Notes under the pieces: generated by a model | The model's database searches: none | What the model was told of the DNA's origin: nothing | Seen by the model: the letters and a program-made list of their open reading frames with translations, nothing else | From: Telmatospirillum sp. | Lineage (GTDB): Bacteria > Pseudomonadota > Alphaproteobacteria > CACIAM-22H2 | Reading direction: 5' to 3' | DNA length: 64,000 bases | Assembly: GCA_020248985.1 (NCBI GenBank) | Contig: JADCGL010000001.1 | Location: 1-64,000 of the forward strand | Made by a program: the position numbers and the translations under genes | Shown here: in pieces, positions 8,060-32,828 of the stretch | Numbering within the stretch: position 1 is the first letter of the stretch | Layout of the letters: every line of letters starts with the position of its first letter

Positions 8060-10294
8060 TTGGCTGATTCTTCCGCGTCATCCGCCCTGGCCGTTTCGCG
8101 TGCAAGGCTCGAACGCAAACAAGCGCTGCACCGCCGCCCCGCCACATATTTGCTGTTCGGCTTGGTCCTTTCGCTTGCGTTGACGGCTCTTGCATGGCTC
8201 GAGCGTCGCACGGACGTCGAAACGCGCTTTGTGATCCAGACCGAACGGTTCGTGGCCGCCCTTGCAAGCCATTTGCAGGTCTACGAAATGGCCCTGTCCG
8301 GCGGGGCGGCTTTGTTCGCGGCGTCCGACGACGTCACGCGGGCCGAATGGGCGACCTATGTGGCATCGACGCGCGTGCGCGACACGCTGCCCGGGAACCA
8401 GGCTTTTGGCTTTGCCGCCTTCGTGCCGGCAGCGGGCCGCGAAGCGCATGTGGCCGCCCTGCGTGCCGAGTTGGGGGGAGCCGAAGCGGGATCCGAGTAC
8501 GAGATCAGGCCGCCGGGCCTGCGCACGGCCTATGTGCCGATCGTGTTCAACGAGCCCTATGTCGGCCGCAATCGCGGCGTGGTCGGTTTCGACATGTATT
8601 CCGAGTCCACGCGCCGTGCGGCGATCGATACGGCGATCAAAGCCCGGCAGCCGACCATGTCGGGCAAGGTCGTGCTGGCGGGCGAGCAGGGCGATGCGCG
8701 TCCGCCGGGTTTCGTCATCTATGCGCCGGTCTTCAAGAGCGGAGAGCACAAGCCGCTGGGCTTTGTCTTTGCGCCGTTTCGCATGCCCGATCTGATGGCG
8801 GGGCTGCAGCGCAGCTGGGATTCGGGCCTCGCTTTCTGCATCTACGACGGCACGGAGAAAAGCGAGGCCACTTTGATGCATGCGGCCTGGCCGCAGAGTC
8901 TCGTTGCCCCGCACAACGCACGCGACGTCGTGTTTGAGGCGCTTGGGCGCAGCTGGACGATCGAATTCGGCGCCGGGCAAAGTTTCGAGCGCAACGACGA
9001 GATATGGGCGCCGTGGCTGGTGCTTGCCTTCGGGTTTTCGGCGAGTCTGCTGGTGTTTGCCCAGGCGCGTGCGCTCGTCAAGATCCAGGCGAGCGCGCAA
9101 GAGCTTGCGGACGCCAAAAACGCGTCGGAGGCGGCCAACCTTGCGAAGTCCAATTTCGTGGCGACCGTGAGCCACGAGATCCGCACGCCGATGAACGGCA
9201 TCATGGGCATTTCGGGGCTATTGCTCGACACGCCGCTCGACGCCAACCAGCGCGAACTCGCCGTCGCCATCCGCGATTCGAGCGAGAGCCTGCTGTTGAT
9301 CGTCAACGACGTGCTCGATCTCTCGAAGCTCAATGCCGACCGGCTCGAGTTCGAACAGATCGCTTTCGACCTGCGCCAATGCGTGCGCGCCGCACTCGAG
9401 GTCGTGCGCCCGCGCGCCGACGCCAAGGGCCTGGCGCTCGAATTCGAGGCCGATTCGAGCCTCCCGGCCGCGGTTTCGGGCGATCCGGGCCGGCTGCGCC
9501 AGATTGCCCTCAATCTCGTTTCGAACGCCGTCAAGTTCACGGACACCGGCACGGTGCGCGTCGAACTTGCCGTGGATCGCGGTGCGGTTGCCGTCGAGGG
9601 CCGCGTGGCGCTGTGCCTTGCGGTCAGCGACACGGGCATCGGCATTGCACCCGCCTATCTGCCCAATCTGTTCGAGGAGTTCGTGCAAGGAGACGCGTCG
9701 GTTGCGCGGCGTTTCGGCGGCACGGGCCTCGGGCTGGCGATCGTGCGGCGCCTTGCCGAGCGGATGGGCGGCACGGTGCAGGCCGCCAGCACGCTCGGGC
9801 GCGGCAGCCGCTTCGAGGTGCGCCTGTCGCTGCCCGTCGCCCTAAGTGCCGCCTCCAAGCGCGAGAATGTGGCGCTGACCAGCGCCATCGCCCGGCTCGA
9901 AGAAGTTTCCGAAACGCTCGGCCGCCCGATCCGTCTGCTGCTGGCCGAAGACAACGCCACCAATCGCCTCGTCGCGGTCGAGATGCTGAAGCCCTATCCG
10001 GTGCGCGTCGATGCGGCGGCCAATGGACTCGAAGCGGTCGAGGCGGTGCGCACCACGCCCTACGATCTCGTGTTGATGGACGTGAACATGCCCGAAATGG
10101 ACGGGCTCGACGCGACGCGCGCCATCCGCACGCTGCCGGGCGAGGCGGGCCGCGTGCCGATCGTGGCCGTGACGGCAGGGGCTTTCGACGACGACCGCGC
10201 GCGGTCTCTTGCTGTCGGAATGACGGGCTATCTTGCGAAGCCGTTCCGCAAGGCAGCCTTGCTCGACGAAATCGCCAGCGCCTTGGCGCTCTAG
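8060..10294 (+). CDS. Hybrid sensor histidine kinase with CHASE domain and receiver
   Basis: 744 residues from TTG 8060. N-terminal membrane helix (~residues 28-45), an extracytoplasmic CHASE domain (~60-290; [18 protein letters not shown] and [12 protein letters not shown] are typical), a second helix (~315-335), HisKA with His ~372 in [16 protein letters not shown], HATPase with [21 protein letters not shown] and [10 protein letters not shown], and a C-terminal receiver with phospho-acceptor Asp 674 ([14 protein letters not shown]) and KPF lysine. Divergent from the dCache kinase with a ~150 bp shared upstream region. TTG start is by default: no better ATG lies in front of the first helix and no clear ribosome site is visible. 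The output partner is unknown; no phosphotransfer protein is in the window. Confidence 0.9.
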
Positions 10295-11745
10295 GCGCTG
10301 GGGCCCGGCAGCAGAATCTCGCGCTCGTCGAAGGCTTCGAGGCTCGGCATCAACATGTCGGCCTGTTCGAGGAACAGCGAGCGCGCCACGCCGCGCACGA
10401 GGCGCGGCAGCGCGAATTTGTGGCCGCTGATCGAAGTGCATTGCCCGCCATGGCTCGCCATCGCCGCGTAGCTGAAACAGAAGAGATGTTTGAGATAGGG
10501 CGCCGCGCCCGGCCGGCGTTCGAGAAATTCGAAATCGGGACCGAGATAGGGCGAGGCGCCAAGCCCCGCATGCGCAAGTGCCGGCGGCGGCGTGTAGCGG
10601 TCGGCCCACAAGGCGATCTGGTCGCGCACAAGATCGAGCTCGGGCCGGCGCGCAAGGTCGGTCGCAAGGCCGGTGGCGCAGATGAGGAAATCGGCGACAA
10701 GCGCCCCTTTGGGCGTGTCGATGCGGATCTCGTTGCCGGCAACGGCGACAGACAGCCAGTCGCGGCCCGGATGCGCGGCGAAGTTCGCATAGGCCGTGGC
10801 GGCCGCAACGCCGTTTGCCGTCGGCGGCTGGTCCATGCGGCGGAAGGCGACGCCGAGCTGCCAGCGCAGCGCATCCGGCAGATCGTAGAAATGGTCGAGA
10901 AAGCCCGCCTGCTCGGCCCAGCGATGCGGATTGATCTCGGGCAGTTTGGCGCGCCGGAAACACAGATCGACGCGCGTTGCCCCGTTCGCCAACGCCCAGG
11001 CCGCATTGTCGAAGGCCGACGCGCCATGGCCGAGCACGGCGACGCGCTTGCCGGCCACTTGTTCGACCGCGATCGGGCCGTTGGAATGCGCGAATGCATG
11101 CTGGGGCAGGTTGTTTTTGATGTGGTCGGGCACATCCCAGCCGCCGCTGCCCTCGAAGCCCGTGGCGAGCACCACGCGGCGTGCGTTCAGCGTGTGCGGC
11201 CCGCCGGGGCCATTCAGCGCCAACGCAAAGCCGCCGGCGATCGGGCGGATTTTTTCGACATTCGTGCGATGGCGTATCTTGGCATCCGTGACGGCTGCGT
11301 ACCAATCGAGATAGGCCGCCCAGTGCACGCGCGCGATGCGGCCGAGCGCGTCCCACGCTTGTGCGCCGAACTGCACTTCGTACCAACGGCGAAAACCCAG
11401 ATTCGGCAGCCCGAATTCGAGGCCGACAAGATCTTTGGGCGTGCGCAATGTCGCCATGCGCGCATAGGTCTGCCACGGTCCCGCCTCGCCGGGCGCTGCC
11501 GCACTTAAACACAGCGTGTTGGGCACGCCGGCACGCTGCAGGCCGAAAGCAAGACCCAGTGCGGATTGCCCGCCGCCGACGATGGCGACGTCGCACCCTT
11601 CTTCGCCGGCAGAGGCATGCCGGTCGACCCAGCTGCGCGCCGGATAGGCCAGGGCCGCGATCTCGGCGCGCGCCTGGCCGGCGAGGGCCTGCAGCGCCGG
11701 GCTTGCGAGATCGATCGTCGGATAGCCGTCTTGTTCGTAGCGCAT
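10291..11745 (-). CDS. FAD-dependent NAD(P)-binding oxidoreductase, N-hydroxylase/FMO-like
   Basis: 484 residues from ATG 11745. Two dinucleotide folds are visible: FAD-type [18 protein letters not shown] (~residue 50) and NADPH-type [19 protein letters not shown] (~residue 235), plus the FLICATG motif near residue 360. This is the layout of flavin monooxygenases and of N-hydroxylating monooxygenases. The last 4 bp overlap the convergent hybrid kinase. Upstream, a plus-strand ureidoglycolate-lyase-like gene separates it from the phosphoramidate operon, so membership of that pathway is only possible, not shown. Substrate unknown. Confidence 0.8.
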
Positions 11746-11811: not shown

Positions 11812-12309
11812 ATGACCCCGACCCAAACCGCCGACATCGTCGATCTCGTGCCGCAGCCGATTGCAGCTTCGGCGTTTGCCCCCTATGGCCAGCTTATCGC
11901 GGCCACGCAAGACGGCGCTTTGTTCGGGCCGCAGGATGCGCAGCTTGTGCTGTCGGCCGGCACGCCGCGCTTCTACATCATGGCGCTGTCGCGGCGCGAG
12001 CCGGTGATCCGCGGCATCACGTGCCATGTGCGCGTCACGCAGTGTCTGGCGAGCGTGGGCGGCGTGCCGTGGTATCTGCTCGTCGCCCCGCCCGGCGACG
12101 TGCCCGATCCCAAGCGTCTTGCCGCTTTCGTGACTCCGGGCAATGTCGCGGTCAAACTGCATGTCGGCACGTGGCATGCGGGGCCGTATTTTGCACCCGC
12201 CACCTGCGACTTCTTCAATCTCGAACTTTCCGACACCAACGAGACCGACCATCGCACGCTGCCGCTCGACCGTGCGTATCGGCTGGTCTATCCGCCCGCT
12301 ACGGCATGA
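11812..12309 (+). CDS. Ureidoglycolate lyase family protein (AllA-like cupin)
   Basis: 165 residues from ATG 11812, with a GGAG about 10 bp upstream. Family features: N-terminal IAASAFAPYGQLI, a mid-protein TCHVRVTQCLASVGG where AllA proteins carry the HxxTxQ-type strand (here RVTQ), LLVAPPGDVPD, LHVGTWHAGPY and FFNLELSDTNETDH near the end. AllA proteins are small cupins that release urea and glyoxylate from ureidoglycolate in purine breakdown. The gene stands alone on the plus strand between the flavoprotein and SDR genes, and its last 11 bp overlap the SDR gene. The only other ureide-type gene here is the pucG-like aminotransferase 31 kb away. Confidence 0.8.
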   Translation: MTPTQTADIVDLVPQPIAASAFAPYGQLIAATQDGALFGPQDAQLVLSAGTPRFYIMALSRREPVIRGITCHVRVTQCLASVGGVPWYLLVAPPGDVPDPKRLAAFVTPGNVAVKLHVGTWHAGPYFAPATCDFFNLELSDTNETDHRTLPLDRAYRLVYPPATA

Positions 12310-13054
12310 TCTCGCCGCCATTCGGGTGCAGGAGCTGGCCGCAGAAATAGCGGCTCTCGTCGCTCGCCAGAAACACGAAAGCGGGCGTCATGTCGGCGGG
12401 CGTGCCGAGCCGCTTCAACGGCAGCGCTTGCGCATGCGCGCGTTTGGCGGCATTCGACAGCGGATCGAAGCCCGTATCGACAAGACCGGGCGCCACGCCG
12501 TTCACGAGAATGCCGGCCGGGGCGAGTTCCTTGGCAAGGGCGCGCGTGAAGCCGATGAGCCCGGCCTTGGCGGTGCTGTAGCCAAGATATTCGGCCCGCC
12601 CGATATAGCCGAGCTGGGAACACACATTGACGATGCGCCCCTGTTTCTGCCGGCGCATCAAGGCCGCGGCAGCGCGCGAACACAGGAAGGCACCGCGCAG
12701 ATGCACGGCCAGCATGCGCTCCCAATCGGCGAGCGTCGTCTTCTCGAGCTTCTGCGATTTCTGGATGCCGGCATTGTTCACGAGGATGTCGAGCCGGCCG
12801 AAACGTTTGCGGTGGGCGGCGAACAGCGCCGCCACACTTGCCTCGTCGGTCACGTCGGCGCGCACGGCGATCGCCTGGCGACCCGACCGCACGATCGCGG
12901 CGACGGTTGTTTCTGCGGCTTTCGGGTCCGCATGCCACGCCACCGTCACGTCGGCCCCTTCGGCGGCATAAGCAAGCGCCACGGCGCGGCCGATACCCGT
13001 ATTGCCGCCGGTAATCAGCGCCTTCCGGCCGTCGAGTTTTCCCGCTTTCGCCAT
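12299..13054 (-). CDS. Short-chain dehydrogenase/reductase (last gene of the phosphoramidate operon)
   Basis: 251-residue classical SDR: cofactor motif ITGGNTGIGRAVAL at ~15-28, an NNAG motif at ~93-96, catalytic Ser in VCSQLG and YSTAK near 161-165. It resembles 3-oxoacyl-ACP-reductase/glucose-dehydrogenase-type SDRs. Its ATG overlaps the stop of the nucleotidyltransferase by one base (TGATG on the coding strand), so it is translated as part of the phosphoramidate operon. The role there is inference: oxidation or reduction of the acceptor molecule that will carry the phosphoramidate, since the core donor pathway needs no redox step. Confidence 0.88.
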   Translation of the reverse strand: MAKAGKLDGRKALITGGNTGIGRAVALAYAAEGADVTVAWHADPKAAETTVAAIVRSGRQAIAVRADVTDEASVAALFAAHRKRFGRLDILVNNAGIQKSQKLEKTTLADWERMLAVHLRGAFLCSRAAAALMRRQKQGRIVNVCSQLGYIGRAEYLGYSTAKAGLIGFTRALAKELAPAGILVNGVAPGLVDTGFDPLSNAAKRAHAQALPLKRLGTPADMTPAFVFLASDESRYFCGQLLHPNGGEIMP

Positions 13055-13776
13055 CACACGCTCCAAGTTCTGTAGAGTTCGAGGTCGTTCGCACTGTCGA
13101 CTTCGCCCCACGGGCCGTCGACCGCGACTGTTTGGATCGCAGTGCCTTGGGCGAGCAGCGCTTTGAGCAGGCCCGTCATGTCGAGCCGGTCGGCCGCAGC
13201 GGCGGGAAGGCTCGCCAAATAGGCCGCAACGACTGCCCAGCCGGCGGGGGCGAATCGCAGCAGGCCCATATACTGGCCCTGGATCTCGGCGGCGTTTTTC
13301 GTCTTGCCGCCGATTTCGAGCAACTGCCCGTCGGCGCCGCGGCGGAAGGTTTCGGCGTCGGCTAACGGATCGGCGAAGCGCTGCTGCCACAGCGTCAGCC
13401 ACTGCGGATCGTAGGCGATCGCCAAAGGTGCGTCGCACGCGCCGAGTTTGGCGGCGGCGGCCGCGGGATAAAAAATGTCGCTGTAGCTGACTAGGCAAAT
13501 GTCGGCGCGAAGCCACGCGGCCGCGCATTCGAGCGAACGCACCATATTGGTCGTCTGCCAGTGCGGATTGGCGAAAAGTGCGAGCCCTTGTTGCGCCAGC
13601 ATATGGCCTTGCCAGCCCTGCACGATGCCGATCTCGGCGCAGCCCGCCGCCTTGAGCGCTGCGATCTGGCGGTCGAGCAGGCTGCGCCCGCCGATCTCGA
13701 CGAGGCATTTGGGCTTGGCGTCGGTCAAAGCACCCATGCGCGAGCCGCGCCCGGCGGCCAGGATCAGGCCTTTCAT
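13054..13776 (-). CDS. Nucleotidyltransferase, probable CTP:phosphoglutamine cytidylyltransferase
   Basis: 240-residue sugar-nucleotidyltransferase-fold enzyme: start motif LILAAGRGSRMGALTDAKPK (residues 4-23), uridyl/cytidyl-binding region and a metal-binding Asp in VSYSDIFYP. By itself it would be called an NDP-sugar pyrophosphorylase of the LicC type. Context changes the call: it sits 4 bp inside the amidotransferase gene and directly after the glutamine kinase, the same order and families as Cj1417-Cj1416 of Campylobacter jejuni, where the enzyme couples CTP with L-glutamine phosphate to give gamma-glutamyl-CDP-amidate. The specific substrate is inferred from synteny and is not readable from motifs. 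Confidence 0.78.
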   Translation of the reverse strand: MKGLILAAGRGSRMGALTDAKPKCLVEIGGRSLLDRQIAALKAAGCAEIGIVQGWQGHMLAQQGLALFANPHWQTTNMVRSLECAAAWLRADICLVSYSDIFYPAAAAAKLGACDAPLAIAYDPQWLTLWQQRFADPLADAETFRRGADGQLLEIGGKTKNAAEIQGQYMGLLRFAPAGWAVVAAYLASLPAAAADRLDMTGLLKALLAQGTAIQTVAVDGPWGEVDSANDLELYRTWSV

Positions 13777-14357
13777 GCGGACCCCCCGAAAAACGCCGCG
13801 AAGGTTTCGATGTCGCGCGCCGCAAACGGCGCCTCGCGCTCGGGATGCCACATCTGGCCTGCGAGCGCACCGAGGTCGGCGCGTGCGGCTTCGAGCGTGC
13901 CGTCCAGTGCCCGCGCCGTTGCCGCCCAGCCTTTCGGCACTTGCGCCGTACCCCAATCGTGGAAGCTGTTCACGCTTGTGCCGTCGCTCAGCGCGTGGCG
14001 CACCGCGACATGGCCCGCGACGCGTTCGAGTTTTGCGCCCGCGCGCGCGAGCAAAAACTGGAAGCCGCGGCACACGCCGTAGACGGGTCGCGCGTTAGCG
14101 AGCGCCCACGCGACCGCGATTTCTTCGGATGCGTCGCGCTCGGGTGCGTCGCCGAGATCGCCGCCGCCGGTCAGCAGCACGCCGACAGGATCGAGCGTCG
14201 CGACGAAGGCGGCGGCGTTTTGCGGATTGTTCGGCAAGGCGACGCACATGAACCCGGCGGCTGCGAGAAAAACATTCCAGCGCTGGTCGAGCGCGTCGCG
14301 CCGTTCGCCGTGGCGGGGATCGACGACCACACGCTGGCTTGCGAGCAGCACCCTCAT
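13773..14357 (-). CDS. Class I glutamine amidotransferase-like hydrolase, probable gamma-glutamyl-CDP-amidate hydrolase
   Basis: 194-residue triad amidotransferase domain: Cys96 in YGVCRGFQ, His171 and Glu173 in MWHPER, and the TGGGDLGD loop. It has no fused synthetase partner. Free-standing proteins of this group hydrolyse gamma-glutamyl amides. In the C. jejuni phosphoramidate pathway the homologue (Cj1417) removes glutamate from gamma-glutamyl-CDP-amidate to leave cytidine diphosphoramidate. Start ATG 14357 overlaps the stop of the glutamine kinase by 4 bp, and its own stop overlaps the nucleotidyltransferase start by 4 bp, which argues for matched synthesis of the three enzymes. Alternative: gamma-glutamyl-GABA hydrolase (PuuD) in polyamine use, but no Puu genes are present. 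Confidence 0.82.
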   Translation of the reverse strand: MRVLLASQRVVVDPRHGERRDALDQRWNVFLAAAGFMCVALPNNPQNAAAFVATLDPVGVLLTGGGDLGDAPERDASEEIAVAWALANARPVYGVCRGFQFLLARAGAKLERVAGHVAVRHALSDGTSVNSFHDWGTAQVPKGWAATARALDGTLEAARADLGALAGQMWHPEREAPFAARDIETFAAFFGGSA

Positions 14358-16696
14358 TGGATCGCCACAATGCGCCGGTTCGCGCAGTCGAGATCGAGGG
14401 CGCGCGCGCGGCGATAGGTTTCGAAGGCGCGCTCGCCCACGCCGATGGCGGCGGGCGTGCCGGTTTCGCCGGCCCGGATCGCCATGTGCGAATTCGCACC
14501 GCCATAGGCCGTCACGAAGCCCGCAATGCGGCGCGAGAACAGCCAGTCGAAGCCCGGATCGGCATTGGCCACGACCACGATCTTGCCGGTCAGATCCAAC
14601 GCGGCGTCGGCCGCACTCACCGTGCCCTGCGCGCGGCTGCGGCCGACGAAATTGGGTTCGCTCGGCGGGAAGTGGAAGGCGCGCACATGCGCTTGCGTGT
14701 AGATGAGCGGCGGCAGCACCAAGCGCTGGGCGAGCTTCTGGCGCGCCCGGCCCGCCGCAACGCTGTCGCGCAACGCAGCGCCGATATCCGCACTGCCGAC
14801 ATAGAGTTCGTAGATGGTGCGGATGTCGAGATGCGAGGCGTCGTCGAGATCGAGCCCGTGCGCGGCGGCGAGCTTGCCGATCTCGGCCAAGGCCAGCGAC
14901 AGATTGCGCGAGAACAGGAATTTGGCGCGCTCGCGCCCGCGAATGCCGCCTGCCAGAAACGCGAACAGCCCGTCCACGTCCGTGTCGAGCCCGTGCCGGT
15001 CCAGCAACGCGGCGATCTTGGCGCGCATCGCATCGTCGGGGGCGAAGGGCGTGTGCGGCGCGGGGGCGGGCGCCTTTGCGGCTTGCGCGAAATCGAAATA
15101 GAGGTCGGGCGCTTCGTCGTAGCGCGGCGACAGAATGTCGTAGGCGCCGGGCCGCAGATGGCCGTAGGTCTCGAGGAACTGCCAGCGCGGCATGGCGGCC
15201 AAATCGCGGCCGATGCGCGTGCCCACCGTGTCGACCGAGGCCATGAAGGCGGCAAGCCCGTCCTCGTCGAGCGCGCCCACGGCCACAAGCGAGCGCAGGA
15301 TCTGCATGGCGATGAAGCCCGCGCGCGCCAACCCGGCGAAAGGCAGCGTGCCGTAGCGCTTGCAGTCTTCCAGCAGCCAATAGATGCGCGCGACCGGATC
15401 GAGTTTGGCCTGCGCCAGCGCCTGGTAGCGCCGGTCGAGATCGACGAGTCGCGCTTCGTCCTGGCGCCACAGCCCGTCGGGCCGCAGGATGTTGTTGGTA
15501 AGGGCGCGCAGCGATTCCGCCAACGCGGCGCGCTCGGGCGCGGAAAAGCCGCGCTCGTCGAGGGCAGCCAGACGTTCGCGCAACGTGAAATCGTAGCACG
15601 AGAAGACGATGTCGAACTCGACCTTGTCGTGCAGCACGGGTGCCGCGATGAGCCGCCCGATATAGTGCGCCACAAGCCGTTCGGCCAAAGCGGGCGAAAC
15701 GTCGCGCGGCACGAAGCTGTTGAAGCTCAGCCGCACGTCGATATAGGGCAGCCCCTCGAACGACACCATCAGCGGAAAGCTGCGCAGATTGCGGTAGCCG
15801 TAATTGTCGCGCTGGTAGGCCCAGATCGCGTCGGTGACGAGTTCGCGATAGAGCGACAACGCAAGCGGGCGCGGCCGGAGCCCGATGATCTCGGCCGGGT
15901 TCCAGTCCGGCATCACCGCGAACACGGTGCGCGGCCCGAACAAAAACGGATGCGGCCGCAAGCCGGCCGCGACTTTTTCCGAGATGCGGTCCAAGGCCGC
16001 GTGCAACGCGTCGTCGATGGCCGCACCGGGCGGGCAGGCAAGGGCGCGCACCTGCAGGATGGCGACCGCCCCCGTCTGGTCGATGGCGAACTCGACATCG
16101 AGCGCGGGCACGCCGAACGATTCTTCGAGCGCGTCGAGGCAGCGGTCCAGCACCGCGAATTCCGATGGGATCGCCTCGCCCGCACCCGCGATATAGACGA
16201 GCGTTTGCAGCTCGGCCTGTTTGCCGGCCGTCACGGCGGCCGTGTCGGCGCCGATATGGTAGTTGACCGTGCGATAGGGGGCGCCGGTCGCCGGATCGCG
16301 CGTGAAGGCGACGCCGGAAAGGCGCGGCGCAGCCAGCATCGGCTGCACGAGCACGCGGCTCTCGTCTTGCGCCGCCGCGTCGCCGTAGGACGCGACGACC
16401 GCATCGATCGCCGCCGCAAGTGCGCCCGCATCGGCCACATTCGCGATCGACAAAAAGCGCCCGGCCTGCGACGCACTGGCGGCATCCTCGCCCGCCGCAC
16501 TCGAGCGCACGATCAGCGGAAAGGCGAGTTCGGCGTCGCGGCCGAGCCGCGCCAGCACGGCTTCGCGTGCGGTCCGCCATTCGGCGGTCGCAAAATGCTG
16601 CAGCGGCAGCACGTAGCCATGCGCAAGCCGGCCGCGCAACGCTTCGAGCGTCTTCGCCTTGCCGGCAAGTTCGAGGCGGGCGGGCGGCGCACTCAT
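14354..16696 (-). CDS. PEP-synthase-like phosphotransferase, probable L-glutamine kinase
   Basis: 780 residues. The N-terminal ATP-grasp nucleotide-binding domain shows FPLIVRSSAAGEDAASASQAG (~60-80) and LDVEFAIDQTGAVAILQVRA (~200-220), as in PEP synthase/PPDK. A middle region of ~430 residues has no obvious PEP/pyruvate TIM barrel. The C-terminal swivelling domain carries a phospho-histidine at residue 737 in GGANSHMAIRAGETGTPAAIG. N-ATP-grasp, middle, C-swivel order and ~770-residue length match the C. jejuni glutamine kinase Cj1418, which phosphorylates the amide nitrogen of glutamine via phosphohistidine (ATP to AMP + Pi). Start ATG 16696 overlaps the methyltransferase stop by 4 bp. Rifampicin-phosphotransferase-like enzymes share the architecture, so the call depends on neighbours. 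Confidence 0.82.
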   Translation of the reverse strand: MSAPPARLELAGKAKTLEALRGRLAHGYVLPLQHFATAEWRTAREAVLARLGRDAELAFPLIVRSSAAGEDAASASQAGRFLSIANVADAGALAAAIDAVVASYGDAAAQDESRVLVQPMLAAPRLSGVAFTRDPATGAPYRTVNYHIGADTAAVTAGKQAELQTLVYIAGAGEAIPSEFAVLDRCLDALEESFGVPALDVEFAIDQTGAVAILQVRALACPPGAAIDDALHAALDRISEKVAAGLRPHPFLFGPRTVFAVMPDWNPAEIIGLRPRPLALSLYRELVTDAIWAYQRDNYGYRNLRSFPLMVSFEGLPYIDVRLSFNSFVPRDVSPALAERLVAHYIGRLIAAPVLHDKVEFDIVFSCYDFTLRERLAALDERGFSAPERAALAESLRALTNNILRPDGLWRQDEARLVDLDRRYQALAQAKLDPVARIYWLLEDCKRYGTLPFAGLARAGFIAMQILRSLVAVGALDEDGLAAFMASVDTVGTRIGRDLAAMPRWQFLETYGHLRPGAYDILSPRYDEAPDLYFDFAQAAKAPAPAPHTPFAPDDAMRAKIAALLDRHGLDTDVDGLFAFLAGGIRGRERAKFLFSRNLSLALAEIGKLAAAHGLDLDDASHLDIRTIYELYVGSADIGAALRDSVAAGRARQKLAQRLVLPPLIYTQAHVRAFHFPPSEPNFVGRSRAQGTVSAADAALDLTGKIVVVANADPGFDWLFSRRIAGFVTAYGGANSHMAIRAGETGTPAAIGVGERAFETYRRARALDLDCANRRIVAIQ

Positions 16697-17481
16697 GCGC
16701 GCCGGCGAGCGGCCCAAGCGCGCGTGAGATACACGGCTTCGATCGTCTTGTGGCCTGCGATGCGCTTTTCGACCCAGGCGAGGAAATCGGCGAAGCCCGC
16801 CTCGCCCAATTTCGCGCGCACGTCGTTCACGCTGCGCCAAGCGCCCATGTAGATCTCGGGTGCCAGATGCGCCACGTGGCGGCCTTCGAGATAGACGATG
16901 TCTTCGAACAGGGGATGCGCCCACAGCTGCGCAGTCAAGGTCTGCGTGATGCCCGAACGGCCTGAAGAGACGCGCGGCTTGCCCACGAGCCTGCGATCGA
17001 GCTCGGTTTCGATGGCCGCCGTCAGCGCGTTGGCCTCGACGAGGCGCGGATTCCAAAGCGCGCAAAAGCGCCCGCCGGGCCGCAGCACGCGCGCGAACTC
17101 GGCGGTTCCCTTGTCGAAATCGACCCAATGGAAGGACGACGCCATGGTCAGCAGATCCACGCTGTTTGCTTCCAAGCCCGTCGCTTCGCCCGAGCCGTTG
17201 CGCCACGCGATGGCGCCGTTTTCGCGATGTGCGCTGCCTTTGCCGCGCATGTCGTCGTTGGGTTCGACCGCGACCACGCTGCGCAAGCCCGCTTGCGCCA
17301 GGATGCGCGACCAAATGCCGGTGCCGGCCCCCACGTCGGCTGCGTCGCAGTGGGCGGCGGGCCGGTCGAGCAGGCCCAGCAAGGCTTTCACCACGCCCGG
17401 CGCATAGCCTTGGCGGTAGCGCGTATAGTCGGCCGCAAGCCCGGTGAAATCGCCCAGTTTGGTTTCGCCTGCCATAATCAT
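16693..17481 (-). CDS. Class I SAM-dependent methyltransferase (phosphoramidate operon)
   Basis: About 262 residues. SAM-binding motif I is DVGAGTGIWSRILAQAG, followed by the acidic VVAVEPNDDM end of strand 2 and LTMASSFHWVD, the pattern of the UbiE/Methyltransf_11 group. ATG 17481 (reading MIMAGETKLGDF) is used; ATG 17475 two codons later and TTG 17505 are alternatives. It lies between the cytidine-diphosphoramidate-kinase-like gene (42 bp upstream) and the glutamine kinase gene (4 bp overlap). C. jejuni also has methyltransferases next to its kinase gene (Cj1419, Cj1420), where the final group is O-methylated. Methylation of the phosphoramidate or of its acceptor is inferred from that. Confidence 0.82.
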   Translation of the reverse strand: MIMAGETKLGDFTGLAADYTRYRQGYAPGVVKALLGLLDRPAAHCDAADVGAGTGIWSRILAQAGLRSVVAVEPNDDMRGKGSAHRENGAIAWRNGSGEATGLEANSVDLLTMASSFHWVDFDKGTAEFARVLRPGGRFCALWNPRLVEANALTAAIETELDRRLVGKPRVSSGRSGITQTLTAQLWAHPLFEDIVYLEGRHVAHLAPEIYMGAWRSVNDVRAKLGEAGFADFLAWVEKRIAGHKTIEAVYLTRAWAARRRA

Positions 17482-17523
17482 TTTTCCGTTCGTATCGGGG
17501 ACCAAAAGAAAAGCTAGTCGGGA

Positions 17524-18063
17524 TCACGCCCGCCTGTCGAGCCATGCCAGGATCGCGGCCACGCATGCGTCCGGCGGCGGCAACGGATCGGGCCCGAAGA
17601 CGAGATCGGGTGCTTTGGGCGCTTCGAACGCGTCGTCGAAACCGGGCACGGAAGCTTCCGTGCCGGCCTGCGCACGCGCATAGATGCCCTTGGGATCGCG
17701 GCGCACGCGCTCGGCCAAGGCGACGTCGAGATAGATCTCGACGTACGACGCATTGTTGGCGCGGTTCCAGTCGCGCACCGCATCGAACATCGAGATGGTG
17801 GCGCAGACCGCGTCGATGCCTTGGGTGGCCAGCGCGTGCGCGAGCCGCGCATAGACAAAAGCGAGCTCGCGCCGCGCGTCGCGGTCGTAAGAGCCCGCGT
17901 CGCGGCCCAGGATCGCGCGCAGCATGTCGCCGTCGAGCAGCGCGCAAGCCCGGCCGCGCGCGCGCAAGGCGGGGACCAGCGATTGGGCAAGCGTGGTCTT
18001 GCCGGCCCCGGAAAGGCCCGTAACCCAGAAGACCGTGCCGGGTGTGGCGTCAGGGAAAGCCAT
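17524..18063 (-). CDS. APS-kinase-like protein, probable cytidine diphosphoramidate kinase
   Basis: 179 residues with the complete adenylylsulfate kinase layout: Walker A GLSGAGKT at 16-23, LDGDMLR at 43-49 and RRDPKGIYARAQAG in the lid region. No sulfate adenylyltransferase (cysDN/sat), PAPS reductase or transporter accompanies it. Instead it sits in the operon with the glutamine kinase, cytidylyltransferase and amidohydrolase, exactly as C. jejuni Cj1415, an APS-kinase homologue that phosphorylates the 3'-hydroxyl of cytidine diphosphoramidate. Its first 14 bp overlap the end of the hydrolase-sulfotransferase gene. The nucleotide specificity is inferred from synteny; a moonlighting or true APS kinase remains possible because sulfotransferase-like sequence follows upstream. 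Confidence 0.82.
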   Translation of the reverse strand: MAFPDATPGTVFWVTGLSGAGKTTLAQSLVPALRARGRACALLDGDMLRAILGRDAGSYDRDARRELAFVYARLAHALATQGIDAVCATISMFDAVRDWNRANNASYVEIYLDVALAERVRRDPKGIYARAQAGTEASVPGFDDAFEAPKAPDLVFGPDPLPPPDACVAAILAWLDRRA

Positions 18064-19714
18064 AGCCGAGCCTTGCCGCTTCGCTGCCGAAGGTCGCTTT
18101 GGCCTTCGCCCAATCGGCGTCCGTCAACTGGCCCTTGCCGTAGTCGGACAGGCCCTTGCCGTGGTAGCGCCATCCCGCTTCGTAGAGCGGCGCCAACTGC
18201 GGCACATAAAATCGGCATGGCAGCTTGGCCGCGATCGTCGCCTCTTCCAGCTGGCGCGAATGGCCGATCGTCGCGGCCTCGACGGCGGCCGCGATCGTCG
18301 CGTCGTCCGGCGTCAGGCCGAGTAGGGATGCGATCTGGCGGCAGGCGGCGGTTTCGTCTTTGCGAACGTCTTCCAGGCGCAAGCGCAGATACGGCACTTT
18401 CGTCTGTTCGGCAAAATCGCGCCACAGCCGCGCATGCAAGGCCCAGGTGCCGAAGCCGTAATTGGCATAGAGGGCGAGCGTGCCGAGATCGAGAAACTCG
18501 TGCACGAGCTCGCGCGTGCGCGTGTTGCGTTGCTCAGGCGACATCGCCAAATAGTCGCCGTGGAATGGCAGCGCGTAGGACGCGGTCGAAAACGCAATGT
18601 CGACCGGATGGCGCACGACCTGCACGATCGCCGCCGTGTCGTAGGTCGTGGACAAAAACGGCCCCGGCAGATGGTGCGTGAAGATCGGCTCGACCGCACG
18701 TCCCATCGGATCGGGCGGCATGTTGTAGTCCACCAGCATCGGCGGCACGATCTCGTCCATATGCGCAAGCGACCGGATCGGCCCGGCCTTGGCTTCGGCC
18801 GCCAGCAAATGGGCCGCCATCATCTGGACCTTGACCGTGCCCGACGACGGGAAACCGGAGAACCACAGCACGCGGCGCCGCGCATTGGCCGGGCGCGGCG
18901 TCGGCGCCTGGGCGGGCCCTTGCATCGGCGTTGCGTCGAGGCGCGCCAGAAACGCTTCGATTTCGGCGCGCATCGCGTCGGGCGCGTCGTGGAACGGGTT
19001 GTGGTTGAGGCCGGCCACGCGTCGACACGCAAACCGCGCGCCCAAACGCAAGCGCAAGGCGGCTTCGTCGGCAGCGCCGAAACAGCAGGGTTTGCTGGCG
19101 GCATCGGCGTTTTCGGCCGCATCGTCGTCGTTTGCCTCGCCGGTCACGACCGCGACCGGCAGCGAAGGCGGCAGACGCTCGAACAGATCGTAGTACGACA
19201 CGGGCTGCGCTTGGCCGCTCAGCACATTGTAGCCGAAGCTCGCCTGCGCCATCGCGAGCCAGAAGGGCGGGCTCTCGGCATTGGCGTAGCGTTTGAACCA
19301 GCTCGCGACCTGCGCCATGCCGCGCGCGCCCACGGGCGGATCGACCATCAGCACCGCGCGCACGCTTTGCTGCAGCAGCGGCACGGCGGCGACCAGCACA
19401 TTGGCGCCGATCGACTCGCCGATCAGCACCAGCGGCTGCGTGCGGCGCGCATTGAGATAGACGGCGACGCGTTGCGCCATCGCAGCGACCGTCGGCGGAA
19501 AATCGCATGCCGAGCGTCCGTGGCCCGGCAGATTGACGAGATAGATCTCGCAGTCGCGGCTCAGCGCTTCGGCGATTTTTTCGAAATGGGCGGCCGTGCC
19601 GAAGGCGCCGTGCGTGAACACGAGTGTCGCGACAGGGTTCGGCGTCTGCGCTTCGACGCGCACGGCCTGCAGATAGCCGTCGGCATGATGCTGGCTGGCA
19701 TTGACGGTCGCCAT
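18050..19714 (-). CDS. Alpha/beta-hydrolase fused to a sulfotransferase-fold domain; candidate phosphoramidate transferase
   Basis: 554 residues from ATG 19714 (ATG 19828 would add 38 residues of low-complexity, Gln/Arg-rich sequence, thought untranslated). Residues ~1-265 are an alpha/beta hydrolase: VFTHGAFGTAAHFEKIAEAL, nucleophile Ser101 in LIGESIGANVLVA and a candidate His in GLNHNPFH (238 or 242). Residues ~280-554 are a sulfotransferase fold: 5'-phosphate loop FSGFPSSGTVKVQ (~285-297; the usual PKSGT lysine is replaced by Ser) and 3'-phosphate motif VVRHPVDIAFSTAS (~366-379) with the conserved Arg and Ser. First gene of the operon. Because the kinase downstream should make a 3'-phosphorylated CDP-phosphoramidate, structurally a PAPS analogue, transfer of the phosphoramidate by this domain is a reasonable inference; ordinary sulfation is the alternative. 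Confidence 0.82.
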   Translation of the reverse strand: MATVNASQHHADGYLQAVRVEAQTPNPVATLVFTHGAFGTAAHFEKIAEALSRDCEIYLVNLPGHGRSACDFPPTVAAMAQRVAVYLNARRTQPLVLIGESIGANVLVAAVPLLQQSVRAVLMVDPPVGARGMAQVASWFKRYANAESPPFWLAMAQASFGYNVLSGQAQPVSYYDLFERLPPSLPVAVVTGEANDDDAAENADAASKPCCFGAADEAALRLRLGARFACRRVAGLNHNPFHDAPDAMRAEIEAFLARLDATPMQGPAQAPTPRPANARRRVLWFSGFPSSGTVKVQMMAAHLLAAEAKAGPIRSLAHMDEIVPPMLVDYNMPPDPMGRAVEPIFTHHLPGPFLSTTYDTAAIVQVVRHPVDIAFSTASYALPFHGDYLAMSPEQRNTRTRELVHEFLDLGTLALYANYGFGTWALHARLWRDFAEQTKVPYLRLRLEDVRKDETAACRQIASLLGLTPDDATIAAAVEAATIGHSRQLEEATIAAKLPCRFYVPQLAPLYEAGWRYHGKGLSDYGKGQLTDADWAKAKATFGSEAARLGYGFP

Positions 19715-26885: not shown

Positions 26886-27352
26886 CTGGGCAGCAGCGGG
26901 AATGGCGCATCCAAGCTTGTTTGCGCCCTTTGCCACGCAAATCTTGGGACAAGTTTGGAACAGGGCGAACGAAAATGCCGGGAGACCGCGAATCGTTCCG
27001 TGCCTTGGGCTGCCGCATCTCGGGGTTGCCGATGACACGCCCACCCGTGGCGCCTTGCGGGCGGGCTTGCCGATCTCGCGAAATTCTGGCCGCTTGTGTC
27101 GGAGAATCCCGCGCGTGCTGCTGGTCTGGCTGATCGCGGTCCGCTCGCACCGGGCAAGCGCACACAATATTGTGCTCGTCGATATGGTGCACGGCGCACC
27201 GCGTGCGGTGGCCACGTTCGTGGGCGGGCGCATCCGCAATTAAGGTTTATGTCGCGATTCTGAAACAAATTTGCCCGCCAAAGTTCACGCGGACGTAACT
27301 CTCCGCCCGCCATATGCCGCGTATCCCGAACGCATTGCAAAAGGGAACGCGC
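26886..27352. other. Intergenic region before phnC
   Basis: About 470 bp with no supported gene. A 113-codon plus-strand frame (26902-27243) ends in VLVDMVHGAPRAVATFVGGR, but it has an atypical first half and no ribosome site. A promoter for phnC must lie here or upstream; no clear Pho box and no copy of the CTTGTATAGACAAG operator was found. Confidence 0.45.
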
Positions 27353-28180
27353 ATGCTGCAGATCGTCGATCTGAACAAACGTTTTGGCACCACGGCCGCC
27401 GTCGATGGCGTGAGCATCGACATTGCCGAGGGTGCGATGGTCGGCATCATCGGCCGCTCGGGTGCGGGCAAATCGACGCTGCTGCGCATGATCAACCGCC
27501 TCGCCGACCCCAGCAGCGGGCGCATCCTCGCGGGCGATGTCGATGTGGCGAGCCTGAAGGGCGCGGCACTGCGCAAATGGCGCGCCCAGTGCGCGATGAT
27601 CTTCCAGCAATTCAATCTCGTGAAGCGGCTCGATGTGGTCACCAACGTTCTCGTCGGCAGGCTTGCCTATCGCAGCCTCGTGCCCTCGCTGCTGATGCAG
27701 TTCACGGCCGCGGAACGCGCGCTCGCCATTCGCTGCCTCGAACGCGTCGACATCGCCGAATTGGCCCTGCAGCGCGCCGACACTCTGTCGGGCGGCCAGC
27801 AGCAGCGCGTCGCCATCGCGCGCGCGCTGAGCCAGCAGCCGCGCATGATTTTGGCCGACGAACCGATCGCCTCGCTCGATCCGCGCAGCGCGCGCATGGT
27901 CATGGACACGCTGGCGCGCATCAACCGCGCCGACGGCATCACGGTCGTCGTGAACCTGCACGACCTCGACGCGGCGCGCACCTACTGCAAGCGCATCGTC
28001 GGCATGCGCGGCGGCAAAATCGTGTTCGACGGCACGCCCGACCTGCTCGATGCCGCCGCCGTGCGCACGATCTACGGCGACGACGTATCGGCCGAAACCG
28101 GTGCCGATGCAGGGTTCTCGCGCCTCGTCGCCACGGAAGCGGCGGCGCGCGCCGACGCGCCGCGCCAACTCGCGAACTGA
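27353..28180 (+). CDS. phnC: Phosphonate ABC transporter ATP-binding protein
   Basis: 275-residue ABC ATPase. Walker [10 protein letters not shown]-loop [13 protein letters not shown], signature [15 protein letters not shown], Walker B MILADEP, and the H-loop histidine in [10 protein letters not shown]. The [19 protein letters not shown] segment is characteristic of PhnC. Start ATG 27353 follows AAGGGA; an upstream in-frame ATG at 27314 lacks one. First gene of the phosphonate import operon phnCDEE. Confidence 0.92.
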
Positions 28181-28211
28181 TCTTTCCACCCCGCCAACCA
28201 GGAGTCCCACA

Positions 28212-29141
28212 ATGAAAACGACCCGCCGTCAAATCATCGCCGGTGCCGCCGGTGCAGCCTTGTTTGCGCCCGCTCTTGCCGCCACGCGTGCCCAGGCGCA
28301 GGCGAGCTGGCGCGCCCAGTTTCCGACGCTGAACGTCGCCGTCATCCCGTCGGAAAACCAGCAGACCGTCATGAGCCGCTACACGGCCCTGCAGGAGTAT
28401 TTTGCCAAGAGCTTCGGCGTGCAGGTCCGCCTGTTCACGGCGACCGACTATGCCGGCATCATCGAAGCCGTGAAGTCCAAGCGCGTCGAACTCGCCTTCT
28501 TCGGCCCTGCGTCGTATGCGCGCGCTTTCGAGGTGACCGACGGCAACGTCGAGCCGCTGGTGATCGAAGCCGACATCAACGGCGTGGCTGCCTATCGCGC
28601 GGTCATGATCGTGCGCAAGGACAGCCCGGCCCAGAAGATCGAAGATCTGCGCGGCAAGACGCTGGCCTTCGTCGATCCGAACTCGACCTCGGGCTTCGTT
28701 GCCCCCAACTTCTTCCTGTCGAAGGCGGGTACGCCGGCCAATACGTACTTCTCGCGCACGGGTTTCGCGGGCAGCCACGACAACGTGGCGCTCGCCATCG
28801 TCAACGGCCAGTACGATGCGGGCTTCGTGTGGTACCGCTCGGCGACCGACAGCGTGTTCCAGCGCATGTGGGACAAGAACCTGATCGCGAAGGATTCGGT
28901 GCGCGTCGTGTGGACGTCGCCCGACATTCCGGAAAGCCCTTGGGCCGCGCGCAAGGATCTGCCGCAGGCCATGCGCGACGATCTGCGCAAGGCGATGATG
29001 GACATGCCGACCAACGATCCGGCCGGCTTCAGGCAGATCACGGAAGGCAACTCGAAAGGCTTCGTGCTCGGTTCGCACGCCGTGTACGAGCCGATCATCG
29101 AGATGATCAAGTTCAACCAGGCCCAGCGTCGCGCGTCCTGA
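28212..29141 (+). CDS. phnD: Phosphonate ABC transporter substrate-binding protein
   Basis: 309 residues. N-terminus has a twin-arginine-like signal (TRRQIIAGAAGAALFAPALA followed by an AQA cleavage site). Mature protein shows PhnD features: LNVAVIPSENQQTVMSRYTA, FFGPASYARA, FVDPNSTSGFVAPNFFL and the SHDNVALAIVNGQYDAG segment of phosphate/phosphonate-binding proteins. It captures phosphonates in the periplasm for PhnC-PhnE. GGAG lies 8 bp upstream of ATG 28212. Confidence 0.92.
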   Translation: MKTTRRQIIAGAAGAALFAPALAATRAQAQASWRAQFPTLNVAVIPSENQQTVMSRYTALQEYFAKSFGVQVRLFTATDYAGIIEAVKSKRVELAFFGPASYARAFEVTDGNVEPLVIEADINGVAAYRAVMIVRKDSPAQKIEDLRGKTLAFVDPNSTSGFVAPNFFLSKAGTPANTYFSRTGFAGSHDNVALAIVNGQYDAGFVWYRSATDSVFQRMWDKNLIAKDSVRVVWTSPDIPESPWAARKDLPQAMRDDLRKAMMDMPTNDPAGFRQITEGNSKGFVLGSHAVYEPIIEMIKFNQAQRRAS

Positions 29142-29148
29142 TCGCCCG

Positions 29149-30024
29149 ATGAGCGTTGCTGCGACAGCAATCGATGCGGTCGAACGGTTCGAGACCGCCT
29201 GGCAGAGCCAGCGCCGCGAGAAGCGGCGCCAGCTCTGGCTGGGCGGCCTCGTGCTGCTCGTCTGCACGGCCTTGGCGTCGTACATGGCCGAAATCAATCC
29301 GCGCAATCTGTTCGAAGGCCTGCCGGGCGCTTGGAACTACATTTGGCGTACGGTGCCCGTGCTGCGCATCGAAACCTTCCGCGCCGACATGGCGGAATGG
29401 TACTGGGGCTTCTGGCACTGGCTCAAACTTCTGTTTGAAACGATTCTGATCGCAGGCCTTGCCACATTGCTCGCGTTTGGCGCGGCCTATGTCGGCTGTT
29501 TCTACGCGTCGGCGAATTTGAACGGCTCGCGCAAGGGCATTTGGGTTGTGCGGCGCGTCTTCGAGATCTTTCGCGCCGTGCCCGAACTCGTATATGCGTT
29601 GATTTTCGTGTTCGCGTTCGGCCTCGGCGCCTTTCCGGGCATGCTGGCGATCGCGATCCATTCGGCGGGTGCCCTCGGCAAGCTGTTTGCCGAAGTGAAC
29701 GAAAACGTCGACACGCGCTCGGTCGAGGGCGTGCAGTCGGCCGGTGCCTCGTGGTGGCAGACGATGGTGTTCGCCGTGTCGCCGCAAGTGATGCCGAATT
29801 ACGTCAGCTACGCGCTGCTGCGTTTCGAGATCAATGTGCGCTCGGCCGCCGTGCTGGGCTTCGTGGGGGCGGGCGGAATCGGCGAAGAATTGCTGCTGGC
29901 GGTGCGCCAATTCATCTATCCGGAGATCTCGGCCATTCTTCTGATGATCATTGCGACCGTGGCGCTGATCGACATGGTGTGCGAACGCCTGCGCACGAAT
30001 CTGATGGGCGAGGGGCGCCAATGA
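29149..30024 (+). CDS. phnE: Phosphonate ABC transporter permease (first copy)
   Basis: 291 residues with six hydrophobic segments and the permease EAA-type loop (NENVDTRSVEGVQSAGASWW...GFVGAGGIGEEL). N-terminal ~30 residues are charged and cytoplasmic. It forms the membrane channel with the second PhnE; the two permease genes overlap by 4 bp (ATGA), as is common in loci with a heterodimeric permease. Confidence 0.92.
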   Translation: MSVAATAIDAVERFETAWQSQRREKRRQLWLGGLVLLVCTALASYMAEINPRNLFEGLPGAWNYIWRTVPVLRIETFRADMAEWYWGFWHWLKLLFETILIAGLATLLAFGAAYVGCFYASANLNGSRKGIWVVRRVFEIFRAVPELVYALIFVFAFGLGAFPGMLAIAIHSAGALGKLFAEVNENVDTRSVEGVQSAGASWWQTMVFAVSPQVMPNYVSYALLRFEINVRSAAVLGFVGAGGIGEELLLAVRQFIYPEISAILLMIIATVALIDMVCERLRTNLMGEGRQ

Positions 30025-30893
30025 CGAGTCCGCGCATGGAAACCGCCTTGCCGCACGCCAGCGAGATCGCCGCCCTGAAGGCGCGCTATCCGCAGATCTA
30101 TGCGGCCGAGCAGCGCCGCAAGCTCAAGCAATTCGCCGTCGCGGCGGCGATCGCGGCCTTTGTCGGCTATTGCTTCTGGTGGATCGGCATGGGCTGGGAC
30201 CGCTTCTTCGCCGGGCTCGGCAAACTCGGCTGGCTGTTCCAGTTCCTGTTTCCGCCGAGCAGCGGCGGCTGGTTCACGTACTTCCTGACCGGCATGGGCG
30301 AAACGCTGGCCATGGCGTTCCTGGGCACGATGCTGGCGGCCCTTGCCGCCATCCCGCTCGGCTTTCTGGCCGCGCGCAACATCGTCTCGAACCGCGTTTT
30401 CCATTTCGGCATCCGCCGCAGCCTCGACGGGTTTCGCGGCGTGGATGCGCTGATCTGGGCATTGGTGTTCGTGAGTGCGGTGGGCTTGGGGCCGTTTGCG
30501 GGCGTGATGGCGCTTGCTTTGTCCGATGTCGGCACGCTTTCGAAGTTGTTCTCGGAAGCCATCGAAAATGTCGAGCGCGAGCAGGGCGAGGGCGTGCGCG
30601 CGGCAGGCGCGAGCAGCCTTCTCGAAACGCGCTTCTCCGTGGTGCCGCAAGTGCTGCCGGTGTTCGTTTCGAACGTGCTCTATTATTTCGAGAGCAACAC
30701 GCGCTCGGCGACCGTGCTGGGCGTGGTCGGGGCCGGCGGCATCGGGCTTGCCCTTGCCGACCGCATTCGCATCAACGATTGGGACCAAGTCTGTTTCATC
30801 GTGATCATGATCCTGATCACGGTTTCGATCATCGACGTGCTGTCGCGGTCTTTGCGCGAAAAACTCGTCGGCAAGCAGCCGCTGCCGGTGTGA
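30021..30893 (+). CDS. phnE: Phosphonate ABC transporter permease (second copy)
   Basis: 290 residues, homologous to the preceding permease: ENVEREQGEGVRAAGASSLL and VLGVVGAGGIGLALADRI match its EAA loop region. It ends 8 bp from the convergent stop of phnF. Two PhnE genes plus phnC and phnD make the transporter complete. Confidence 0.92.
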   Translation: MTSPRMETALPHASEIAALKARYPQIYAAEQRRKLKQFAVAAAIAAFVGYCFWWIGMGWDRFFAGLGKLGWLFQFLFPPSSGGWFTYFLTGMGETLAMAFLGTMLAALAAIPLGFLAARNIVSNRVFHFGIRRSLDGFRGVDALIWALVFVSAVGLGPFAGVMALALSDVGTLSKLFSEAIENVEREQGEGVRAAGASSLLETRFSVVPQVLPVFVSNVLYYFESNTRSATVLGVVGAGGIGLALADRIRINDWDQVCFIVIMILITVSIIDVLSRSLREKLVGKQPLPV

Positions 30894-30901
30894 GTGCAGC
30901 T

Positions 30902-31633
30902 TTACGGTGCTTCGACCATGAGCTGGACACGGTCGGCGGCAAAGCTCGTCATGCCGAAATCGATCGGCACGTCGGCGGCAGAGACGTTCACGCTCTCGGT
31001 CACAAGCACCGGCCGTGCGGGCGTGAGGGCGAGCAGCTCGATCTCGTCGGTCTCCGCCAAGCGCGCTGTGATGCGCGTCCATTTGCGTCGATAATCGGCA
31101 TGGCCCAACGCCGCCATCGCCTTGGAGATCGAGCGCTGCGTGCGCAACGCTTCGGCAATGCCCGGCAGCCTTTCGGTCGGGAAGAAGTGCAGCGCATAGC
31201 TCGTCGGGCTGCCGTCGGCACTGCCGACCGACCGCCACGCCACCACCGGCCGGCCGACGCGCAAACCCAGCGCCTTGGCGATGGGCTTCGATGCGAACAC
31301 TTCGGCGATGCCGAGAATTTCGTGGTGCGGGGATCGGCCTTGGCGCAGCAGGTTTTCCGAAAAGCGCGTGCGCGGCCCGAGCGCGTATTCGACGGCCGCC
31401 CCCACCAGAAACGAGCCGCGCCCGCGTTCCACGCGCACAAGGCCGCGCTGCACGAGCCCGCCGATGGCGCGGCGCACTGTATGCCGATTCACGCCGAAGC
31501 GGCGCGCAAGTGCTCCTTCCGATTCCAGCCTCTCGCCCGGCTTGTTGCCGCGCGCGGCGATCTCGCGGAACAGCGCTTCTTCGATGCGCTTCCACACGGC
31601 CGGGCTCGTATCGTCGCCGTAGATCGGTTCCAT
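30902..31633 (-). CDS. phnF: GntR/HutC-family regulator PhnF
   Basis: 243 residues. N-terminal GntR winged helix (AVWKRIEEALFREIAARG, RLESEGALARRFGVNRHTVR, GLVRVERGRGSFLV) and a C-terminal UTRA ligand domain, the HutC layout of PhnF. ATG 31633 is chosen because GGGAGAG lies 5-10 bp upstream; TTG 31636 is possible. It is divergent from phnG, and the shared ~150 bp region contains two identical inverted repeats that resemble known PhnF operators, so it should repress phnG-N and itself until phosphonate or phosphate signals change. Convergent with phnE. Confidence 0.9.
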   Translation of the reverse strand: MEPIYGDDTSPAVWKRIEEALFREIAARGNKPGERLESEGALARRFGVNRHTVRRAIGGLVQRGLVRVERGRGSFLVGAAVEYALGPRTRFSENLLRQGRSPHHEILGIAEVFASKPIAKALGLRVGRPVVAWRSVGSADGSPTSYALHFFPTERLPGIAEALRTQRSISKAMAALGHADYRRKWTRITARLAETDEIELLALTPARPVLVTESVNVSAADVPIDFGMTSFAADRVQLMVEAP

Positions 31634-31715
31634 CAACGCTCTCCCTCAAGGCGTCCGCAAAGCGCCACAAAAACTTCTCGGAGCTGCGCTATTGGGCGCG
31701 GCCGCGTGAACGTAT

Positions 31716-31729
31716 CTTGTATAGACAAG
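31716..31729. promoter_or_regulatory. PhnF operator 1
   Basis: Inverted repeat CTTGTATAGACAAG, nearly palindromic around TATA. It has the TATAGAC core reported for PhnF sites (for example TGGTATAGACCA in mycobacteria) and lies in the phnF-phnG divergent region, 37 bp (centre to centre) before an identical copy. Confidence 0.72.
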
Positions 31730-31752
31730 TTCACCAGGTTGGTCTAAACAAA

Positions 31753-31766
31753 CTTGTATAGACAAG
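31753..31766. promoter_or_regulatory. PhnF operator 2
   Basis: Second exact copy of CTTGTATAGACAAG, ending 15 bp before the phnG start codon, where a bound repressor would block transcription or elongation. Three and a half helical turns separate the two centres. Confidence 0.72.
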
Positions 31767-31781
31767 TTGGATGACGCGCCA

Positions 31782-32243: not shown

Positions 32244-32246
32244 CGG

Positions 32247-32825: not shown

Positions 32826-32828
32826 GCC

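Follow-up and report, generated by a model that had tools for sequence, protein, structure and literature searches.

The C. jejuni phosphoramidate pathway and a related operon in Telmatospirillum

Bonds between phosphorus and nitrogen (P-N) are rare in known biology. The closest described system to the one reported here is the O-methyl phosphoramidate (MeOPN) pathway of Campylobacter jejuni (Cj1415-Cj1418), whose first and last P-N intermediates are N-phospho-L-glutamine and 3'-phospho-cytidine diphosphoramidate (PMC6429109), and whose transferases Cj1421 and Cj1422 were initially annotated as glycosyltransferases (PMC9561416), not as sulfotransferases. We analyzed the first 64,000 nucleotides of contig JADCGL010000001.1 of the alphaproteobacterium Telmatospirillum sp. 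(GCA_020248985.1; hereafter the window), in which seven minus-strand genes at 12299-19714 form a putative operon of this type. By analogy with the C. jejuni pathway, we consider it fairly probable that the operon makes 3'-phospho-cytidine diphosphoramidate (3'-phospho-CDP-amidate), a look-alike of 3'-phosphoadenosine 5'-phosphosulfate (PAPS), and that a sulfotransferase-fold domain encoded by its first gene, here called HydST, transfers phosphoramidate or methyl phosphoramidate from it. Donor synthesis is the stronger half of this mechanism, in comparison with the transfer step. The locus would then represent a variant of the C. jejuni-type pathway with a new transferase chemistry, and in the open-licence literature we found no paper tying sulfotransferases to phosphoramidate transfer. 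The seven genes are the following:

18050..19714, minus strand: HydST, 554 aa, N-terminal alpha/beta hydrolase plus sulfotransferase-fold domain (Pfam Abhydrolase_6 and Sulfotransfer_1), proposed phosphoramidyl transferase
17524..18063, minus strand: APSK, adenosine 5'-phosphosulfate (APS) kinase-fold kinase, 179 aa (PF01583, E 2.6e-33), proposed CDP-amidate 3'-kinase, Cj1415-like
16693..17481, minus strand: MT, class I S-adenosylmethionine-dependent methyltransferase, 262 aa (Methyltransf_11), proposed phosphoramidate O-methylation
14354..16696, minus strand: glutamine kinase homologue, phosphoenolpyruvate (PEP) synthase-like, 780 aa with His737 (PPDK_N and PEP-utilizers domains; NF004508)
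13773..14357, minus strand: class I amidotransferase, 194 aa with Cys96/His171/Glu173 (Peptidase_C26/GATase; best model NF045546), proposed gamma-glutamyl-CDP-amidate hydrolase
13054..13776, minus strand: MobA/LicC-type nucleotidyltransferase, 240 aa (NTP_transf_3), proposed phosphoglutamine cytidylyltransferase
12299..13054, minus strand: short-chain dehydrogenase/reductase (SDR), FabG-like, 251 aa (adh_short_C2, E 2.3e-58)

All seven frames are open, and the genes overlap at all but one of the six junctions, by 14 bp between HydST and APSK, by 4 bp each at MT/kinase, kinase/amidotransferase and amidotransferase/nucleotidyltransferase, and by 1 bp between nucleotidyltransferase and SDR; only APSK and MT are separated, by a gap of about 42 bp. 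This layout of mostly overlapping genes is the one described in the initial annotation, whose family assignments, that of the methyltransferase included, agree with the Pfam and NCBIfam matches.

In the pathway that we propose, the 780-aa kinase would N-phosphorylate L-glutamine through His737, the nucleotidyltransferase would join the phosphoglutamine to CMP, taken from CTP, the amidotransferase would take off glutamate to leave CDP-amidate, and the APS-kinase-fold enzyme would put on the 3'-phosphate. C. jejuni passes from its first to its last P-N intermediate in this same order. HydST, by its sulfotransferase-fold domain, would then grip the 3'-phosphate and move phosphoramidate, instead of sulfate, to an acceptor hydroxyl with release of 3',5'-cytidine bisphosphate, and the methyltransferase would cap the phosphoramidate, ahead of transfer or once it is complete. 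A probable task of the fused hydrolase and of the SDR is to make the acceptor ready or to set it free. The scheme draws on gene content, conservation, catalytic residues, fold, linkage and the undetected sulfate-activation genes; for the individual reactions in this organism we infer from the published C. jejuni biochemistry, and the proposed transfer by a sulfotransferase fold would follow from the linkage, the altered residues and the lack of PAPS synthesis.

Enzymes of the donor pathway

The operon kinase scores 864 bits against NF004508 (PRK05849; cut-off 501), a model that itself carries only the name "hypothetical protein" and that we read as the Cj1418 family. Three other identities for this protein, PEP synthase, pyruvate phosphate dikinase and rifampin phosphotransferase, were dismissed, since the models for PEP synthase and Rph give at most 53 bits, far below their cut-offs; pyruvate- and drug-phosphotransferases were the identities that the initial annotation had set against a glutamine kinase. 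The residues that it had singled out are also strictly conserved: the swivel histidine, residue 737, is identical in 80/80 kinase homologues among the matches listed, and the Cys96/His171/Glu173 triad in all 78 amidotransferase homologues. The gamma-glutamyl-CDP-amidate hydrolase model NF045546 is matched by 37 of 37 sampled amidotransferases from related gene clusters (cassettes), more than by any other model. The nucleotidyltransferase matches the CTP:phosphocholine cytidylyltransferase 1jyk and, like the APS-kinase-like kinase, is clustered with the glutamine kinase, as expected of a donor pathway.

APSK is the only strong APS-kinase match in its genome. It lies under the cut-off of TIGR00455, the model for true APS kinases (114 bits against 138.7), and over that of the broader subfamily PRK05541 (156 bits against 127). 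DGDxxR and the arginine of RxxN are invariant among the APS-kinase-like kinases of the cassettes, whereas the asparagine of RxxN, which we take to be an APS contact, occurs in only 6/73 of them and is absent in the operon enzyme. These features bear on a simpler explanation, that of a sulfation operon in which a true APS kinase activates sulfate for a sulfotransferase and the PEP-synthase-like protein acts on some other substrate. The automatic names, adenylylsulfate kinase (from PRK05541) and sulfotransferase, speak for it, but the TIGR00455 score and the missing asparagine do not, no ATP sulfurylase was detected in the genome, and the conserved kinase-amidotransferase-cytidylyltransferase trio would be left unexplained; we regard this explanation as very improbable. 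From family models and gene clustering, a predicted phosphoramidate-donor pathway of the Cj1415-Cj1418 type is well supported.

Absence of detectable sulfate activation

Neither PF01507 (CysD, APS/PAPS reductases) nor PF01747 (Sat) had a match in the genome of the window (G000, 98.92% complete) or in the cassette-bearing genomes G017, G018, G019 and G001, while control matches were obtained in 14/14 and 5/14 genomes, respectively. Because neither ATP sulfurylase nor APS/PAPS reductase was detected, APS and PAPS should not exist in these organisms. If neither compound is made, APSK and HydST need another substrate, and the remaining genes of the operon offer one that could serve. No second sulfotransferase was found in the genome by a search of limited sensitivity, which missed HydST also. 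A genome apparently unable to make PAPS offers a clean system for testing the transferase idea. Most of the genomes checked in the same genus (G011, G012, G016-G020) gave no match to sulfate-activation families, with the cassette present or absent, and one genome (G015) has PF01507 matches.

Linkage and active site of the sulfotransferase-fold domain

We mapped PF00685 or PF13469 matches relative to the kinase in 50 kinase-bearing genomes. Of these, 21 have a sulfotransferase-family gene no more than 6 kb from the kinase, against 0.5 expected from match number and genome size, or about 40 times chance, and a simulation of 200,000 runs never gave more than 5 genomes; the lineages are not independent, so P values for such contrasts serve as description only. 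Pfam scans of the kinase neighbours agree with this linkage, and a plasmid of Azospirillum lipoferum carries the core together with annotated sulfotransferases.

HydST consists of a hydrolase at about residues 1-270, with Ser101 in a GESIG motif, and a sulfotransferase-fold domain at about residues 271-554. The hydrolase half is poorly predicted by AlphaFold2, and its nearest solved sequences, all weak matches, are esterases and thioesterases. The C-terminal domain is modelled with a high predicted local distance difference test score (pLDDT) and aligns with Teg12 (Z 25) and StaL (Z 24). In an alignment with relatives unlinked to a cassette, HydST retains the histidine (His347) and both residues of the 3'-phosphate motif (R368/S376), and YPKSGNTW has become FPSSGTVK and KTH/KVH has become FTH; the P-loop lysine is thus replaced by Ser290, the tryptophan by Lys295 and the KTH lysine by Phe345. 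The P-loop lysine, the KTH lysine, the base-stacking tryptophan and the 3'-phosphate motif are those to which we assign presumed PAPS-binding roles. The unlinked relatives keep the P-loop lysine and, all but some of them, KTH or KVH. HydST thus has the fold and the 3'-phosphate motif of a PAPS sulfotransferase and lacks the basic P-loop residue and the KTH lysine. More generally, the P-loop position, as read by eye, is basic in 7 of 20 linked sulfotransferases and in 38 of 39 unlinked ones, a set biased toward strong Pfam matches (12 of 13 in a score-matched unlinked subset).

Alternatively, the cassette could make the donor for a transferase encoded elsewhere, with HydST sharing only the operon and working as a genuine PAPS-dependent sulfotransferase and hydrolase. 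Sulfotransfer_1 is named for PAPS enzymes, the fold matches two of them, Teg12 and StaL, and in more than half of the cassette genomes nothing close by is recognized as a sulfotransferase. We nevertheless think this improbable in view of the linkage, the altered PAPS-contacting residues and the lack of any detected sulfate-activation family in this genome or its cassette-bearing relatives. The hydrolase-sulfotransferase that the initial annotation had listed as an addition to the pathway is indeed present, and more likely acts as its phosphoramidyl transferase than in an accessory role.

Several observations weigh against phosphoramidate transfer by HydST or against the donor pathway behind it. 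The analysis drew on draft genomes, and its first search filter can miss divergent proteins, as it did with HydST itself. In 29 of the 50 cassette genomes no recognized sulfotransferase is found up to 6 kb from the kinase, which means that the task must fall to other transferases in those genomes, and some linked sulfotransferases retain arginine or lysine in the P-loop. The amidotransferase reaches only 67 bits against the cut-off of 250 of its best model, NF045546, and is therefore filed as a distant homologue and not as an equivalog. Finally, it is by way of NCBIfam models and of genes occurring together that the operon is tied to Cj1415-Cj1418 and Cj1421/Cj1422, and the tie is an indirect one.

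In three plasmid lineages the kinase-amidotransferase-nucleotidyltransferase trio has no APSK within 9 kb, and transferases of CDP-alcohol type are found instead: CDP-OH_P_transf in Agrobacterium vitis (L112), Glyphos_transf in Vibrio alfacsensis (L110) and a sub-threshold Glyphos_transf match in Pseudohalocynthiibacter (L109). Their gene content suggests that these trios use CDP-amidate directly. The few examples fit a rule in which a sulfotransferase fold goes with the 3'-kinase and a CDP-donor transferase with its absence. We give a somewhat better than even chance to the general proposal that a class of sulfotransferase folds accompanies the cassette across phyla and transfers phosphoramidate from 3'-phospho-CDP-amidate, so that part of the "APS kinase plus sulfotransferase" annotations would denote P-N chemistry. 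If true, the addition of the 3'-phosphate would be explained as a fit to the sulfotransferase pocket, the missing transferases would be named in many genomes and a recurrent mis-annotation would be corrected.

Distribution and genomic context of the cassette

A contig scan with the kinase as query recovered at least 80 loci, in Alpha-, Beta- and Gammaproteobacteria, Acidobacteria, Planctomycetes, Verrucomicrobia, Cyanobacteria, Nitrospina, Balneolaceae and Firmicutes. A five-gene core of APSK, MT, kinase, amidotransferase and nucleotidyltransferase co-occurs in most of them, far beyond chance, and most cassette loci include a match to a methyltransferase. The cassette is widespread, in contrast to the description of glutamine kinase as C. 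jejuni-specific in a 2022 review (PMC9561416). Two further sequences related to the kinase came to light: one near nifK on a Cupriavidus taiwanensis plasmid (L111), with a thiamine pyrophosphate enzyme, an aminotransferase and an efflux pump, and a 31.7% identical kinase-like stretch (970-2994) in MT837632.1, an unannotated 9.5-kb faecal phage record.

Closer to the window, a kinase above the family cut-off is present in four genomes of the genus, including that of the window, and in one other genome of the family. In L102 (G019) the whole set of seven is found in identical order, with about 85-96% identity and the same flanks, and L003 (G018) has MT to SDR up to the contig end. The SDR adjoins the nucleotidyltransferase in same-genus loci too. 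L004 (G017) keeps the five-gene core and has, between APSK and MT, a PF13469-type sulfotransferase unlike HydST, so that within the genus the transferase type varies while the core is constant. In the same family (L006/L105, G001), hydrolase and sulfotransferase are two adjacent separate genes. Among 385 genomes of the class, a search for HydST-like fusions matched only the window itself and L107, whose sulfotransferase is unlinked to a cassette and has canonical motifs. The gene set proposed in the initial annotation is therefore conserved, entirely in L102 and as the five-gene core in most loci, with the transferase gene as its variable part.

The operon is preceded by a divergent aroE. On its other side lie two neighbours that keep the same position in L003 and L102:

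11806..12309, plus strand: ureidoglycolate-lyase-like protein (PF04115), conserved neighbour, probably outside the operon
10291..11745, minus strand: FAD/NAD(P) oxidoreductase (Pyr_redox_3), conserved downstream neighbour, operon membership uncertain

In addition, a C-P lyase cluster for the use of phosphonates, with a phnC/D/E-type transporter, PhnI and a PhnM-like amidohydrolase lies on the plus strand at 27314-37387, about 8 kb from the operon.

The acceptor

The initial annotation had called the operon non-capsular and suggested a P-N-containing small molecule or an unknown modified target. Its observation that glycosyltransferase, kps and wz genes are absent holds for 30 further open reading frames of the window, several of them probably spurious, none of which matched these families. 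Neither conclusion is established by this, as acceptor genes could lie elsewhere and many related cassettes are found in glycan or flagellin loci. If HydST does transfer phosphoramidate, a possible acceptor, to which we give slightly less than an even chance, is a glycan, lipid or protein of the cell surface produced by genes that lie outside the window, in other words an envelope decoration. Such a target would accord with the many related cassettes adjoining glycan or flagellin genes and with the C. jejuni pathway, which serves the capsule (PMC3907429), but the window frames tested yielded no glycan gene, the operon has a hydrolase and an SDR instead, and the solved sulfotransferase folds closest to HydST belong to antibiotic-tailoring enzymes. 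On the strength of the fused hydrolase, the SDR and the structural relatives, we lean toward a small molecule or lipid, which the transferase may tailor in this genus; an envelope target is about equally likely given the glycan and flagellin contexts of the other cassettes.

The genes surrounding some of these cassettes were named from sequence reading. Around the L004 cassette are genes for type I secretion, an FkbM-like methyltransferase and a tetratricopeptide repeat (TPR)/OGT-like protein, hinting at the decoration of a secreted surface protein. The cassettes of L019, L020 and several Pseudomonas loci adjoin genes for flagellin or the flagellar hook, an arrangement that resembles flagellin glycosylation islands.

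Comparison with known systems

APSK resembles CysC in its fold, Walker motif, DGDxxR and the arginine of RxxN; it differs in falling under the equivalog cut-off, in the asparagine missing from most cassette kinases and in having no ATP sulfurylase partner that we could find. HydST likewise shares with the PAPS sulfotransferases Teg12 and StaL the fold (Z 25 and 24), the 3'-phosphate motif and a catalytic-type histidine, and departs from them in the replaced P-loop lysine, KTH lysine and base-stacking tryptophan, in its fusion to a hydrolase and in belonging to a genome without detected PAPS synthesis. Compared with the MeOPN locus of C. jejuni, the operon has no capsule genes found nearby, carries the fused hydrolase-sulfotransferase and the SDR, and resides in a free-living alphaproteobacterium, as opposed to the capsule use in Campylobacter. 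It resembles the Cj1415-Cj1418 pathway, as judged by family models, in the clustering of the same four enzyme families together with a methyltransferase, in the catalytic-type histidine of the kinase and the Cys/His/Glu triad of the amidotransferase, and in its expected product, 3'-phospho-CDP-amidate.

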